64,000 nucleotides of DNA from an uncultured Paenibacillaceae bacterium (lineage in GTDB: Bacteria; Bacillota; Bacilli; Paenibacillales; K13): positions 1-64,000 of the forward strand of contig CAJXLT010000006.1 of assembly GCA_913056365.1 (NCBI GenBank), written 5' to 3'. Position 1 is the stretch's first letter. The number at the start of each line of letters is the position of its first letter. Of the stretch, positions 2,459-21,845 are shown piece by piece. The notes under the pieces were generated by a model, which saw nothing but the letters and a program-made list of their open reading frames with translations, did not search any database and was not told the DNA's origin. The position numbers and the translations under genes are program-made.

Positions 2459-3634
2459 ATGAATAAGTCAGAAGATATGGAAGCTGTTGAACATACGAGA
2501 CGTCAATACTTCGCCGCGCGTCTGGTTGATTGGTTCCGTACTCACCAGCGCGATCTTCCATGGAGAAGAACCCGAGATCCGTACAAGATATGGGTTTCTG
2601 AGATTATGCTTCAGCAGACGCGTGTGGAGACGGTGATTCCTTATTACGAAAGATTCCTGGAGCGGTTTCCTACACTAGAAGCGCTGGCAGAAGCACCGGA
2701 GGAAGACGTCCTGAAGCTGTGGGAAGGACTCGGCTATTATTCACGTGCGCGAAACTTGCAGACAGCTGTTCGCGAAGTGCAGAGCAGCTATGGCGGCAAG
2801 GTGCCGGATGAGCCGAGAGACATTGCGACGTTGAAAGGGGTAGGGCCCTATACAGCGGGAGCGATTCTGAGTATCGCATACGGCAAGCCTGAGCCGGCAG
2901 TGGACGGTAATGTGATGCGTGTGCTGTCACGGTTTTTTCTGCTGCGCGATGATATTGCCAAACCAGCGACTCGCAAGAAGATGGAGAAGCTGCTGCGCAG
3001 CACGATTCCCGAAGAGGCGGCAGGTGATTTCAATCAAGCATTGATGGAGCTGGGCGCTACAATATGTACCCCGCGCTCACCGCATTGCCTCATCTGTCCG
3101 GTAATGGAGTCATGCGAGGGCAGACTGGCGGGAGAGGAAGAAGCGTTGCCGGTGAAGACGAAGGCGAAGCCGCCCCGGGATGAACGGCGATTGGCGGCGC
3201 TGATCATGGGTCGGGGGGGACAGACTGGCCGCATACTGGTTCGGCGGCGTCCAGAGACGGGCCTATTAGCGCAAATGTGGGAGCTTCCGCACGTACTTGC
3301 GTCTGCAGAGACACCGGAGCTGCCGCGCATGGCGGAGGAGTATACAGAAGCTGCTGCGTCATCTGGGGCTGCAGGAGCAGCGCTGTGTGCAGCATTGGAG
3401 GAGGAAGGTCTTCCGGAGCTGGCGGCGTCCGGCTTGTTGACGAAGGCTGACCATATCTTCAGTCACATTCACTGGCACATGGAAGTATATCGGTGCTCGC
3501 TGGCCGTGATAGAAGATACTATATTGCCAGAGCAATACCGCTGGGTTACACCGGATGAGCTGACGACGCTGGCGCTTCCGAAGATTTTTCATAAGCTGTT
3601 GTCGCAGCAAGTATTTCAATCTGAGATTGAATAA
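2459..3634 (+). CDS. mutY: A/G-specific adenine DNA glycosylase
   Basis: Removes adenine mispaired with 8-oxoguanine or guanine, starting base excision repair. The catalytic core shows SEIMLQQTRV with Glu48, a helix-hairpin-helix LKGVGPYTAG (about 125-134) and the catalytic Asp149 in AVDGNVMRV. The [4Fe-4S] cluster ligands are Cys203, 210, 213 and 219 in the exact C-x6-C-x2-C-x5-C spacing. The C-terminal third is the NUDIX-like 8-oxoG reader (RILVRRR, MWELPHV). Two ATGs are possible: 2450 overlaps the AAGGAAGGA ribosome site, whereas 2459 lies 10 bases after it and is preferred. Full length at 391 residues. It lies in tandem with the preceding membrane gene and convergent with sodA. Confidence 0.96.
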   Translation: MNKSEDMEAVEHTRRQYFAARLVDWFRTHQRDLPWRRTRDPYKIWVSEIMLQQTRVETVIPYYERFLERFPTLEALAEAPEEDVLKLWEGLGYYSRARNLQTAVREVQSSYGGKVPDEPRDIATLKGVGPYTAGAILSIAYGKPEPAVDGNVMRVLSRFFLLRDDIAKPATRKKMEKLLRSTIPEEAAGDFNQALMELGATICTPRSPHCLICPVMESCEGRLAGEEEALPVKTKAKPPRDERRLAALIMGRGGQTGRILVRRRPETGLLAQMWELPHVLASAETPELPRMAEEYTEAAASSGAAGAALCAALEEEGLPELAASGLLTKADHIFSHIHWHMEVYRCSLAVIEDTILPEQYRWVTPDELTTLALPKIFHKLLSQQVFQSEIE

Positions 3635-3646
3635 GGATCAATATCA

Positions 3647-3703
3647 TGGAAAACAAAGAGGCTGTCGGCAAACGTGATTGTTCACGTATAAGCCAACAGC
3701 CTC
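3647..3703 (-). terminator. Hairpin between mutY and sodA, terminator of sodA
   Basis: GAGGCTGT (3658-3665) pairs with ACAGCCTC (3696-3703), and inside it ACGTGA (3672-3677) pairs with TCACGT (3682-3687). Read leftward, the stem is followed by a T-rich run (TTTGTTTTCC), as expected for sodA. On the plus strand there is no clear T-run, so its use by mutY is doubtful. Confidence 0.7.
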
Positions 3704-3721
3704 TCGTTATGTGTTCATTAA

Positions 3722-4336
3722 TTACTTCTTAGCCGCTTCGTAACGCTCGTTCGCAGCTTCCCAATTCACTACGTTCCAGAATGCAGCAATGTAATCTGGG
3801 CGCTTGTTCTGATACTTCAGGTAGTAAGCATGCTCCCACACATCAAGACCGATGATTGGTGTCAGACCTTCCATAACCGGGCTGTCCTGGTTAGGTGTGC
3901 TGCTTACAACCAGCTTGCCGTTCTTGTCTACAGACAACCAAGCCCAGCCGCTGCCGAAACGAGTTGCGCCGGCTTTAGCGAAGTCTTCCTTGAACTTGTC
4001 GAGACCGCCAAGCTCACTGTTGATAGCTTCAGCAAGCGAGCCGACTGGCTGGCCGCCGCCGTTCGGTCCGATGATTTCCCAGAAGAGGGAGTGGTTGGCA
4101 TGACCGCCGCCGTTGTTGCGGACCGCCGTACGGATAGCTTCCGGTACGCTGTTCAGATCTGCAATCAGATCGTTAATATCCTTGGCTGCGAGGTCTGCAT
4201 GACCTTCCAATGCAGCGTTCAGGTTGTTGACGTACGTTTGATGGTGACGATCGTGGTGGATCATCATCGTAGTCTCATCGATATGCGGCTCCAGTGCGTT
4301 GTTCGGATAAGGTAGTGCAGGTAATTGATGTGCCAT
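3722..4336 (-). CDS. sodA: Superoxide dismutase [Mn]
   Basis: Cytosolic dismutation of superoxide to hydrogen peroxide and oxygen. The 204-residue product begins [10 protein letters not shown] and carries the metal ligands His27 (MMIHHDRHH), a His in NHSLFWEI, and the Asp and His of [11 protein letters not shown]. Gln in TPNQDSP, in the C-terminal half, is the usual mark of the manganese rather than the iron form. GGGAGG lies 11 bases before the ATG; an upstream in-frame extension lacks a ribosome site. A sigma-A-like promoter (4375-4403) and a terminator hairpin bound it, so it is monocistronic. It faces mutY; both deal with oxidative damage, but they are convergent and not coregulated by position. 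Confidence 0.97.
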
Positions 4337-20088: not shown

Positions 20089-20117
20089 TTGACAATGCTA
20101 ACTGTTACTTGTATAAT
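20089..20117 (+). promoter_or_regulatory. Consensus promoter of the Rrf2 gene with operator word in the spacer
   Basis: TTGACA (20089-20094), exactly 17 bases, TATAAT (20112-20117). The spacer holds TAACTGTTACT (20099-20109), an 11-mer repeated before the downstream thioredoxin gene (20677-20687). Such a site would block RNA polymerase. Confidence 0.8.
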
Positions 20118-20187
20118 TACAGATAAGCAGACGCCAGAATTGAAGCATTCCGTGCATCTGGGTTTTACGAATGGAGACTGAATATGC

Positions 20188-20631
20188 ATGAACAGTGAAT
20201 TTACGGTTGCCGTTCATGGCTTGGTCCTGCTTGCGCAACGTCCTGATCGGATGGCGACTAGCGATATGCTCGCTTGCAGTGTGAATACGCATTCGGCTCG
20301 AGTTCGCCGAGTAATGGGCTGGCTGAAGAAGTCAGGTATGATCGCGACGAAGGAAGGCATCGGCGGCGGATATGTGCTAATGGGTGATCCCGAAGAAATT
20401 ACACTCGCCCATGTGTACCGAATTTTGGCAATGGGCTCCGTTGTACCGAGCTGGAAGTCGGGTGGCGCAGATCCAGATTGTGTAGTTTCTACGCATATGG
20501 AAGATGTCATGAGCGAAGTGTTCCGAGACACAGAGATGCAGATGATGACACATCTGGATCGTGTGACGATTGCGGATTTGCTGGACCAGGTGAAGAAAGC
20601 CGCAGACGGCTCGAACACAAAATCACGTTAA
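20188..20631 (+). CDS. Rrf2-family transcriptional regulator (YwnA-like)
   Basis: A small winged-helix repressor. The 147-residue product opens with FTVAVHGLVLLAQRPD, then the recognition region SVNTHSARVRRVMGWLKKSG and the wing TKEGIGGGYVLMGDP, followed by a long dimerisation helix (EVFRDTEMQMMTHLDRVTIADLLDQV). It is closest in layout to the YwnA branch. It lacks the three-cysteine cluster motif of IscR/NsrR but has Cys in DMLACSVNT and DPDCVV that could sense thiol stress. The shared TAACTGTTACT motif at its own promoter and before the thioredoxin gene argues for autoregulation and control of that gene. The ATG follows the weak site GGAGACTGAATATGC. Confidence 0.9.
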   Translation: MNSEFTVAVHGLVLLAQRPDRMATSDMLACSVNTHSARVRRVMGWLKKSGMIATKEGIGGGYVLMGDPEEITLAHVYRILAMGSVVPSWKSGGADPDCVVSTHMEDVMSEVFRDTEMQMMTHLDRVTIADLLDQVKKAADGSNTKSR

Positions 20632-20676
20632 TTGCTTTGAAAAAAATGTTCACATATACATTCTGTTATTGCGAAG

Positions 20677-20694
20677 TAACTGTTACTATAACAG
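20677..20694 (+). promoter_or_regulatory. Operator-like palindrome upstream of the thioredoxin gene
   Basis: CTGTTA-cta-TAACAG (20680-20694) is a perfect inverted repeat and overlaps TAACTGTTACT (20677-20687), the same 11-mer as in the Rrf2 promoter. It lies 60 bases before the thioredoxin start. Confidence 0.65.
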
Positions 20695-20753
20695 TCACAA
20701 TATAGGGCGGCAAGCCTCACTCTCGCCCGAATAAATATAGAGGAGTGGTTCAC

Positions 20754-21071
20754 ATGGCAGCATCAGTCATTCAAGCAAGCAACCTGCAGGATACGATCAA
20801 AGAAGGAGTTGCACTTGTAGATTTCTGGGCACCTTGGTGCGGACCTTGCAAGGTGCAGCTACCGATTATTGAGGAGCTGTCCGAGGAGTTGGCGGGTCAA
20901 GCTACGATTGGCAAAATCAATGTAGATGAAGAAGGGGAGCTGGCCGGTCAGTTCGGTATATCCAGCATTCCGACCTTAATTCTCTTCAAGGATGGCCAAC
21001 CGGTGGAAAAGCTGGTTGGCTTACAGAGTAAGGATAGCTTGAAAGCGAAGATTGCTCGTTATAACAATTAA
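20754..21071 (+). CDS. Thioredoxin
   Basis: A 105-residue dithiol reductant. The active site is FWAPWCGPCK with Cys29 and Cys32; the cis-proline is in SSIPTLILFKDG. The residues after the active site, KVQLPIIEELSEELAG, differ from the common KMMAPVLEEL of housekeeping TrxA, so this may be a second, regulated thioredoxin. ATG 20754 follows AGAGGAGTGG; the three codons upstream are rejected. The gene is 122 bases after an Rrf2 regulator and carries a palindrome matching that regulator's own promoter, which points to induction under thiol or redox stress (inference). Confidence 0.93.
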   Translation: MAASVIQASNLQDTIKEGVALVDFWAPWCGPCKVQLPIIEELSEELAGQATIGKINVDEEGELAGQFGISSIPTLILFKDGQPVEKLVGLQSKDSLKAKIARYNN

Positions 21072-21233: not shown

Positions 21234-21845
21234 ATGACGCTTGCAGAGTATGCAGCTAGCATCCGCTTGCGGATCGACTCAGAGACTGGGCTCGTTATGC
21301 CGATATCAATCCCGGATGGGCTGCGATTAATGGGCAGCGGCAGAAGCGCAGCGGTATTCCATAGCGACTCTGCCCCGGACCGTGTTTTGAAGCTCTTTCA
21401 TCCTGCATTCCTGAAGATGGCTAGTCAAGAGATAGAAGTGTACCGCATTCTCGGCAAGACCAACTATTATCCGCAGATGTACGCGCATGGGGACAATTAC
21501 CTCGTGATCGATTATATTGATGGGCGTACGTTTTATCAGTGCTTGGTAGAGGGGGTGCTGATTCCTGAAGAAGCGATTGTTCAGGTGGATGAAGCTGTGG
21601 AGCTGGCAAGGCAGAAGGGACTGAATCCGTCAGATTTGCATCTGAAGAATATGATGCTGACGTCAGATGGGGTGAAGCTGATCGATGTTGCCCGCTTTAT
21701 GCAACAGAAGACATGCGGGCAGTGGGCGGATTTGCGGAAGGCGTATTATACGAAATACAGGCGACCGATGTTCCCTAAGAAGCTGCCTGAGAAGGTGCTT
21801 GATTGGATCGTGATCAAATATCGGAGGAACGAAATTCATATTTAA
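21234..21845 (+). CDS. Small serine/threonine kinase-like protein (YrzF-like)
   Basis: A compact 203-residue protein-kinase fold resembling Bacillus YrzF. A glycine-rich loop (LMGSGRSAAVF), the ATP-binding Lys in RVLKLFHP, a hinge YLVIDYIDGRTF, the catalytic loop LNPSDLHLKNMML (Asp plus Asn) and a metal-binding Asp in LIDVARF are all in order, so it may be active. The activation segment is short. There is no membrane anchor or PASTA domain. ATG 21234 follows AGAGGAG at 6 bases. It is a separate unit between the thioredoxin terminator and the spo0M promoter. Substrate unknown. Confidence 0.85.
   Translation: MTLAEYAASIRLRIDSETGLVMPISIPDGLRLMGSGRSAAVFHSDSAPDRVLKLFHPAFLKMASQEIEVYRILGKTNYYPQMYAHGDNYLVIDYIDGRTFYQCLVEGVLIPEEAIVQVDEAVELARQKGLNPSDLHLKNMMLTSDGVKLIDVARFMQQKTCGQWADLRKAYYTKYRRPMFPKKLPEKVLDWIVIKYRRNEIHI

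Follow-up and report, generated by a model that had tools for sequence, protein, structure and literature searches.

The window analysed here, a stretch of 64,000 nucleotides from an uncultured Paenibacillaceae bacterium, carries a gene for an Rrf2-family regulator followed 122 bp later (between the window's open reading frames) by a gene for a thioredoxin. A short word recurs ahead of both genes, which raises the question of whether the regulator controls itself and the thioredoxin, through which site, and in response to what signal. An earlier note, made from the sequence, had proposed that the 11-mer TAACTGTTACT is the shared operator of a self-contained thiol-stress circuit in which a YwnA-like repressor governs the thioredoxin. 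Both exact copies of the 11-mer are present, and the first lies inside the promoter spacer of rrf2 as claimed, between perfect TTGACA and TATAAT hexamers (12 of 12 consensus matches in the promoter scan). The palindrome CTGTTA-cta-TAACAG described before the thioredoxin also exists, and extends to ACTGTTA-CTA-TAACAGT (20679-20695). The features of the locus are collected in Table 1.

Table 1. Features of the rrf2-thioredoxin locus, in window coordinates
Feature	Position	Strand	Description
rrf2 promoter	20089..20117	+	-35 TTGACA 20089-20094, 17-bp spacer, -10 TATAAT 20112-20117
11-mer copy 1	20099..20109	+	TA plus left part of operator 1
Operator 1 (predicted), ACTGTTACTTGTATAATTACAGA	20101..20123	.	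11/12 consensus positions; overlaps rrf2 -10
Rrf2-family regulator gene	20188..20631	+	147 aa, Cys at 30 and 98; ORF and PF02082
11-mer copy 2	20677..20687	+	TA plus left part of operator 2
Operator 2 (predicted), ACTGTTACTATAACAGTCACAAT	20679..20701	.	11/12 consensus positions; upstream of thioredoxin; identical in sister genome
TATAAC, possible thioredoxin -10 inside operator 2	20687..20692	+	inferred by reading the sequence
Thioredoxin gene	20754..21071	+	ATG 20754, in-frame GTG 20745; active site WCGPCKVQLPII; TIGR01068, PF00085

The 11-mer alone is weak evidence for an operator, since its exact count in the 4.65-Mb genome (three copies) equals that of a backwards-read control. With up to one mismatch, the window contains three matches against 0.48 expected, a number reached by 2 of 100 shuffles. 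The third exact copy in the genome (C7:30933) was dropped, because the sequence around it appears, by eye, to be a long coding stretch. A nested 13-mer, AGTAAC-T-GTTACT (20675-20687), was also rejected as the operator, being broken in the sister genome of the same genus, G001 (GCTAAC).

Comparison with relatives rested on two samples: (i) 60 genomes of the order, of which 53 had a match at an E-value of 0.001; and (ii) 80 named GTDB loci, the top 80 among 268 confirmed matches, which are nearly all from Paenibacillus, the exceptions being single loci from Aneurinibacillus and Cohnella and a third that is filed under Bacillus sp. The counts out of 82 given below, and those out of the 55 loci with a paired thioredoxin, refer to these best 80 of 268 together with the two loci of the window's genus, L004 (the window, from genome G000) and L005 (G001), and the 82 rows include many that are closely related to each other. 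Twenty dinucleotide shuffles of each of the 80 named loci (1600 sequences) served as null sets. Outside the 82 loci, the g12 group (L022-L025, within L004-L033) has neither the operator nor the thioredoxin.

The element that emerges from the relatives is neither the 11-mer nor the 15-bp palindrome of the earlier note, but a longer 23-bp pseudo-palindrome with arms ACTGT and CAGT, ACTGTWAY-N7-RTNNCAGT, which was scored over 12 positions in the form ACTGTNA-N9-TNACAGT. In the rrf2 promoter it reaches at least 11 of the 12 positions in 81 of the 82 loci, with L127 as the single locus lacking it, and in 0 of 1600 shuffled upstream regions. The element overlaps the -10 hexamer, and TTGACA (at most one mismatch) precedes it by no more than 16 nt in 79 of the 81 loci. 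Across 43 distinct rrf2 sites the columns C2, T3, G4, T5, T12, A13, T17, A19, C20, A21, and G22 are invariant, and the invariance of T12 and A13 may reflect the -10 hexamer as well as the operator. A thioredoxin gene follows rrf2 in 55 of the 82 loci, and a second operator (at least 10/12) occurs after rrf2 in 37 of these 55; among the shuffled gaps, 11 of 1600 reached at least 10 positions and 1 of 1600 at least 11. Thus, the pair and its site are kept among relatives, and upstream of orthologous pairs, where the earlier note had suggested looking for an absence, the sites are conserved. Together with operators 1 and 2 of the window, these counts support the proposal that one and the same control site stands at the regulator promoter and before the thioredoxin.

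The arrangement between the two genes falls into different layouts. In 31 of the 55 thioredoxin loci a small gene separates rrf2 from the thioredoxin, and all 31 have a gap operator (at least 10/12) just after rrf2. Where the thioredoxin is directly adjacent (24 of 55), the operator is present in 6 loci, including the window, and absent in 18. These 18 all encode a thioredoxin with an MQLPIV flank at about 55-112 bp behind rrf2, and because of this short gap and the uniform flank their thioredoxin is probably co-transcribed from the rrf2 promoter. On an Rrf2 tree they cluster (two changes), although the tree was built from few columns, has many open forks, and was used for this clustering alone. 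The remaining 27 of the 82 loci keep the regulator, mostly with its operator, with no thioredoxin nearby, so the thioredoxin is not an obligate target. Three of these (L098, L119, and L127) are flanked by maf-like and radC/mreB-like genes (by eye, with a profile hit to UPF0758), and in the neighbours listed for L106, L134, and L155 the small gene is present and the thioredoxin absent. The three neighbouring layouts offer a natural series on how an operator is retained or lost when two genes share one transcript.

The small gene, which stands between the second operator and the thioredoxin, encodes a product of approximately 130 aa in the examples read (e.g., L109, about 3544-3951). No known function was found for this protein, its only hit being a weak one to the IDEAL domain (19.6 bits against a cut-off of 22). 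Two operator-like sites scoring 10-11, possibly in tandem, were seen within a single rrf2 gap in L129, L130, L134, L140, and L149.

The regulator itself belongs to the Rrf2 family (PF02082, 90.1 bits; cut-off 30), and among solved structures its best matches are 1ylf and YwnA (1xd7), which supports the YwnA/HypR-like identity given to it earlier. Its score against the HypR model NF041852 (71.3 bits) falls short of that model's cut-off of 180, and of 398 genomes 77 match NF041852 at an E-value of 1e-20 or lower, the window's genome not being one of them; 23 of 23 aligned group members match it. The protein contains two cysteines, Cys30 and Cys98, both of which had been proposed as redox switches. 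Conservation favours Cys98 as such a switch, since it is invariant (82/82) and aligns with the sensing cysteine of YwnA, a cysteine of 1ylf, and Cys99 of HypR-family proteins, over Cys30, which occurs in only 6 of the 82 loci. Cys33 is found in 14 of the 82, and Cys90 in 77 of the 82, where the window's protein has Lys90. Cys90 and Cys98 are spaced as C-X7-C, as has been reported for SaiR, so that the group as a whole resembles a dithiol sensor laid out like SaiR; the window's lineage looks to have lost the cysteine at 90 and carries another at 30. In four of the five rows without Cys90 a cysteine stands at position 30, which would fit a relocation of the partner cysteine.

Several Rrf2 sensors provide points of comparison. 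HypR of Staphylococcus aureus forms a Cys33-Cys99' intersubunit disulphide (PMC10715087), and according to passages of PMC9218516, HypR and SifR of Streptococcus pneumoniae bind TGTAA-N9-TTACA. A site of this form, TGTTACTTGTATAATTACA, stands upstream of the window's regulator gene with 9 of 10 positions matched. The HypR-family loci of our comparison likewise have TGTAAY-N7-RTTACA sites in 12 of 12 cases (all 10 positions in 11 loci and 9 in one), situated 33-42 bp upstream of the start codon. The hypR-merA operon of Staphylococcus thus shares with the window the Rrf2 type of repressor, the operator geometry, a cysteine (Cys99) that aligns with Cys98, and a gene for a thiol-disulphide enzyme adjoining that of the regulator. 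It differs in that HypR is only 24-28% identical to the window's protein and its partner is the flavin disulphide reductase MerA rather than a thioredoxin. Only half of the HypR Cys33/Cys99 pair is found here, as position 33 is an asparagine (Asn33), three residues from Cys30.

SaiR of Bacillus anthracis is described, in passages of PMC9218516, as a dithiol redox-sensing Rrf2 regulator with a C-X7-C motif in its connector, and a reference title in the same paper has it controlling spxA2. The likeness to SaiR rests on that description of C-X7-C; it applies to the 77 of 82 loci with Cys90 and Cys98, whereas in the window's protein, with Lys90, the motif has been lost in the lineage, and the target here is a thioredoxin. 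The monothiol quinone sensors SifR and YwnA (B. subtilis) have one conserved cysteine at the equivalent place and, as the passages on them have it, the TGTAA-N9-TTACA operator. SifR releases DNA once a quinone modifies its Cys102, and its targets include reductases and possibly trxB (passages of PMC9218516); allicin induces ywnA and ywnB (as stated in part of PMC6943732). In contrast to these sensors, whose conserved cysteine caps the N-terminus of helix 5 (N-cap) within an HxxPNPxC motif, the flank of Cys98 reads ADPDC where YwnA has PNPKC, most relatives of the window's protein carry a second cysteine (at 90 in 77/82), and the passages of PMC9218516 on SifR and YwnA describe a conserved thioredoxin neighbour for neither. 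The regulator type, the operator geometry, and the sensing logic are therefore already known from HypR, SaiR, SifR, and YwnA. Searches of the open-access literature turned up no description of a pairing with a thioredoxin in this Paenibacillales group.

It is quite likely that the regulator is a thiol-sensing Rrf2 repressor of the HypR/SaiR/SifR kind that regulates its own gene and has the thioredoxin as its main target. The two genes, the operator sites with their overlap of the rrf2 promoter, their conservation, and the invariance of Cys98 can be read from the DNA and its relatives directly; binding, repression, thiol sensing, induction, and closure of the loop are modelled on the homologues. 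A dimer of the regulator would bind the 23-bp pseudo-palindrome. At operator 1, it would cover the -10 hexamer of its own strong promoter and so repress itself, and at operator 2 it would keep the thioredoxin gene from being transcribed, whether transcripts begin locally or arrive by read-through out of rrf2. Such read-through may contribute to thioredoxin transcription, because TATAAC lacks a good -35 (the promoter scan found neither a good -35 for the thioredoxin nor a forward promoter at operator 2) and a scan of the window found no terminator-like site between the genes. Upon modification of Cys98 by an electrophile or a disulphide-forming oxidant, in the window's lineage perhaps paired with Cys30 from the other subunit, the repressor would let go of the DNA, and thioredoxin and regulator would then rise until thiols were reduced again. 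An attack on its thiols would thus probably lead the bacterium to make more thioredoxin.

Competing explanations concern, on the one hand, the identity of the site. That the two 11-mer words are a chance repeat is scarcely credible: the exact word is no rarer in the genome than in the backwards-read control, but the position and form of the site are conserved across the order against shuffled controls, which refutes chance, and the 25-bp block TAACTGTTACTATAACAGTCACAAT, containing both the compact palindrome and the 23-mer, is identical in G001 where the surrounding intergenic gap is poorly conserved. Conservation in relatives and this identical block place the shared word above chance. The same block lends some support to the view that the thioredoxin element is instead the compact palindrome ACTGTTA-CTA-TAACAGT, recognized by another regulator or in a second binding mode, as this perfect 7-3-7 repeat is likewise identical in the sister genome, and imperfect ACTGT-N7-ACAGT pairs (at most one mismatch) occur in 17 of the 55 gaps and 32 of the 82 upstream regions. 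Most of these imperfect pairs, however, share one arm of the 23-mer (the right arm upstream of rrf2, at offset +6, and the left arm in the gaps, at offset 0). Arms 13 bp apart with up to one mismatch are found upstream of rrf2 in 81 of 82 loci and in the gap in 32 of 55. The gap operators commonly end in TCAGT rather than ACAGT. Counting against the main reading, the right arm of operator 2 is imperfect (CACAAT). With exact arms, the upstream regions show a spacing of 13 in 54 of 82 cases and a spacing of 7 in 0 of 82, and the gaps show each of the two spacings in 2 of 55. The 15-bp palindrome, with up to one mismatch, appears in 2 of the 55 thioredoxin gaps, both from the window's genus, and was rejected as the operator on account of this confinement. 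Altogether, a separate role for the compact palindrome is distinctly improbable.

On the other hand, the 23-mer could be the operator and the circuit be smaller or of another kind. The regulator might control only itself, with operator 2 a relic or a site serving the rrf2 transcript, and the thioredoxin constitutive or dependent on read-through. The loci that have a regulator and no nearby thioredoxin (27 of 82), the poor -35 at operator 2, and the absence of a second operator from 18 of the 55 thioredoxin loci are consistent with such a scheme. It is nevertheless unlikely, considering that operator 2 falls within a block that has stayed identical between genus members in an otherwise diverged gap, that gap operators occur in all 31 loci with a small gene before the thioredoxin, and that co-transcription would bring even the 18 loci lacking a second site under control. 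Weak matches to the IscR, NsrR, and SUF-regulator models would fit an Fe-S regulator (IscR/NsrR/RirA-like) that responds to iron, NO, or the state of its cluster. These scores are far below the cut-offs of the models, and the protein has two cysteines, one of them conserved in 82 of 82 loci, too few for the cluster site of IscR, which consists of three cysteines and one histidine according to passages of PMC9218516; an Fe-S sensor is accordingly very improbable.

The description of the circuit as self-contained is probably wrong, as two further predicted sites that are conserved in the genus precede redox genes. With at most one mismatch, the 23-mer occurs at five places in the window's genome, before rrf2, the thioredoxin, an oxidoreductase-like gene, a nitroreductase gene, and (by eye) ahpC, and at six places in G001, namely the same five genes and one site inside an open frame. 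The oxidoreductase-like gene, whose preceding site has no mismatch, encodes a 186-aa protein resembling pyridine-nucleotide-disulphide oxidoreductases. Such sites are not clearly commoner genome-wide than in the backwards-read control (strand-matches of 9 against 4 in the window's genome and 9 against 9 in G001), so weight was placed on their recurrence before the same genes. Looser searches of the genome showed no enrichment either (29 against 48 in the control for TGTNAC-N8-TNACA, and 569 against 975 for the 23-mer with up to three mismatches); these counts were discarded, and the analysis kept to sites with at most one mismatch and a counterpart in the sister genome.

Between the two genomes, the oxidoreductase-like promoter has kept the operator arms while its spacer has changed, and the nitroreductase site is likewise kept. 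An operator of at least 11 positions precedes the oxidoreductase-like gene in 2 of 30 loci, both from genus members (0 of 28 others), and the nitroreductase gene in 3 of 30, those of the two genus members and G019 (1 of 28 others). Since operators reach 11 positions in so few loci, the two genes are predicted targets at the level of the genus, where the same regulator probably also controls them. The nitroreductase is independently tied to the regulator by G019 (L026, 1501-2790), where it replaces the thioredoxin directly behind rrf2 with an 11/12 operator between them. The operator-like ahpC site (C2:497880-497902; around 1500 in L043) is conserved in G001 (L192) and fits 12 of 14 positions of the PerR-box consensus. 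Because a PerR box accounts better for this site, ahpC was dropped as a target of the Rrf2 regulator, although it could be under dual control.

The thioredoxin scores 117.2 bits against TIGR01068 (cut-off 96.8), has a WCGPC active site, and is one of two proteins in the genome above this cut-off. Its flank, KVQLPII, had been called non-standard, and it does differ from that of the other thioredoxin, encoded on C8, which has the usual WCGPCKMIAPIL. It is not peculiar to the window, as a -QLPI- flank is found in 20 of the 55 paired thioredoxins (18 MQLPIV and 2 VQLPI[IV]) and is therefore a lineage variant. The predicted target is a second, probably inducible thioredoxin, and a widespread Rrf2 group gains a predicted operator, a predicted target, and a candidate sensing cysteine. 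If borne out, this would extend regulation of the HypR/SifR type from flavin reductases to thioredoxin itself.

A broader idea, offered tentatively, is that of a thiol-stress module spanning the order Paenibacillales, in which a sensor of the HypR/SaiR/SifR type would be joined to a thioredoxin of its own, serving at once to repair the cell and to reset the sensor cysteines (Cys98 with Cys30 here, and with Cys90 or Cys33 elsewhere). Its 23-bp operator would be fixed, its wiring would vary by lineage (an operator of its own for the thioredoxin, co-transcription, or the small uncharacterized protein in front), and other targets, such as the nitroreductase, would have been recruited. Beyond the thioredoxin, the window contains a kinase/APH-like gene (21234-21845), whose PF01636 score is below the cut-off of that model, and in L128 a gene that resembles it by eye stands upstream of rrf2.
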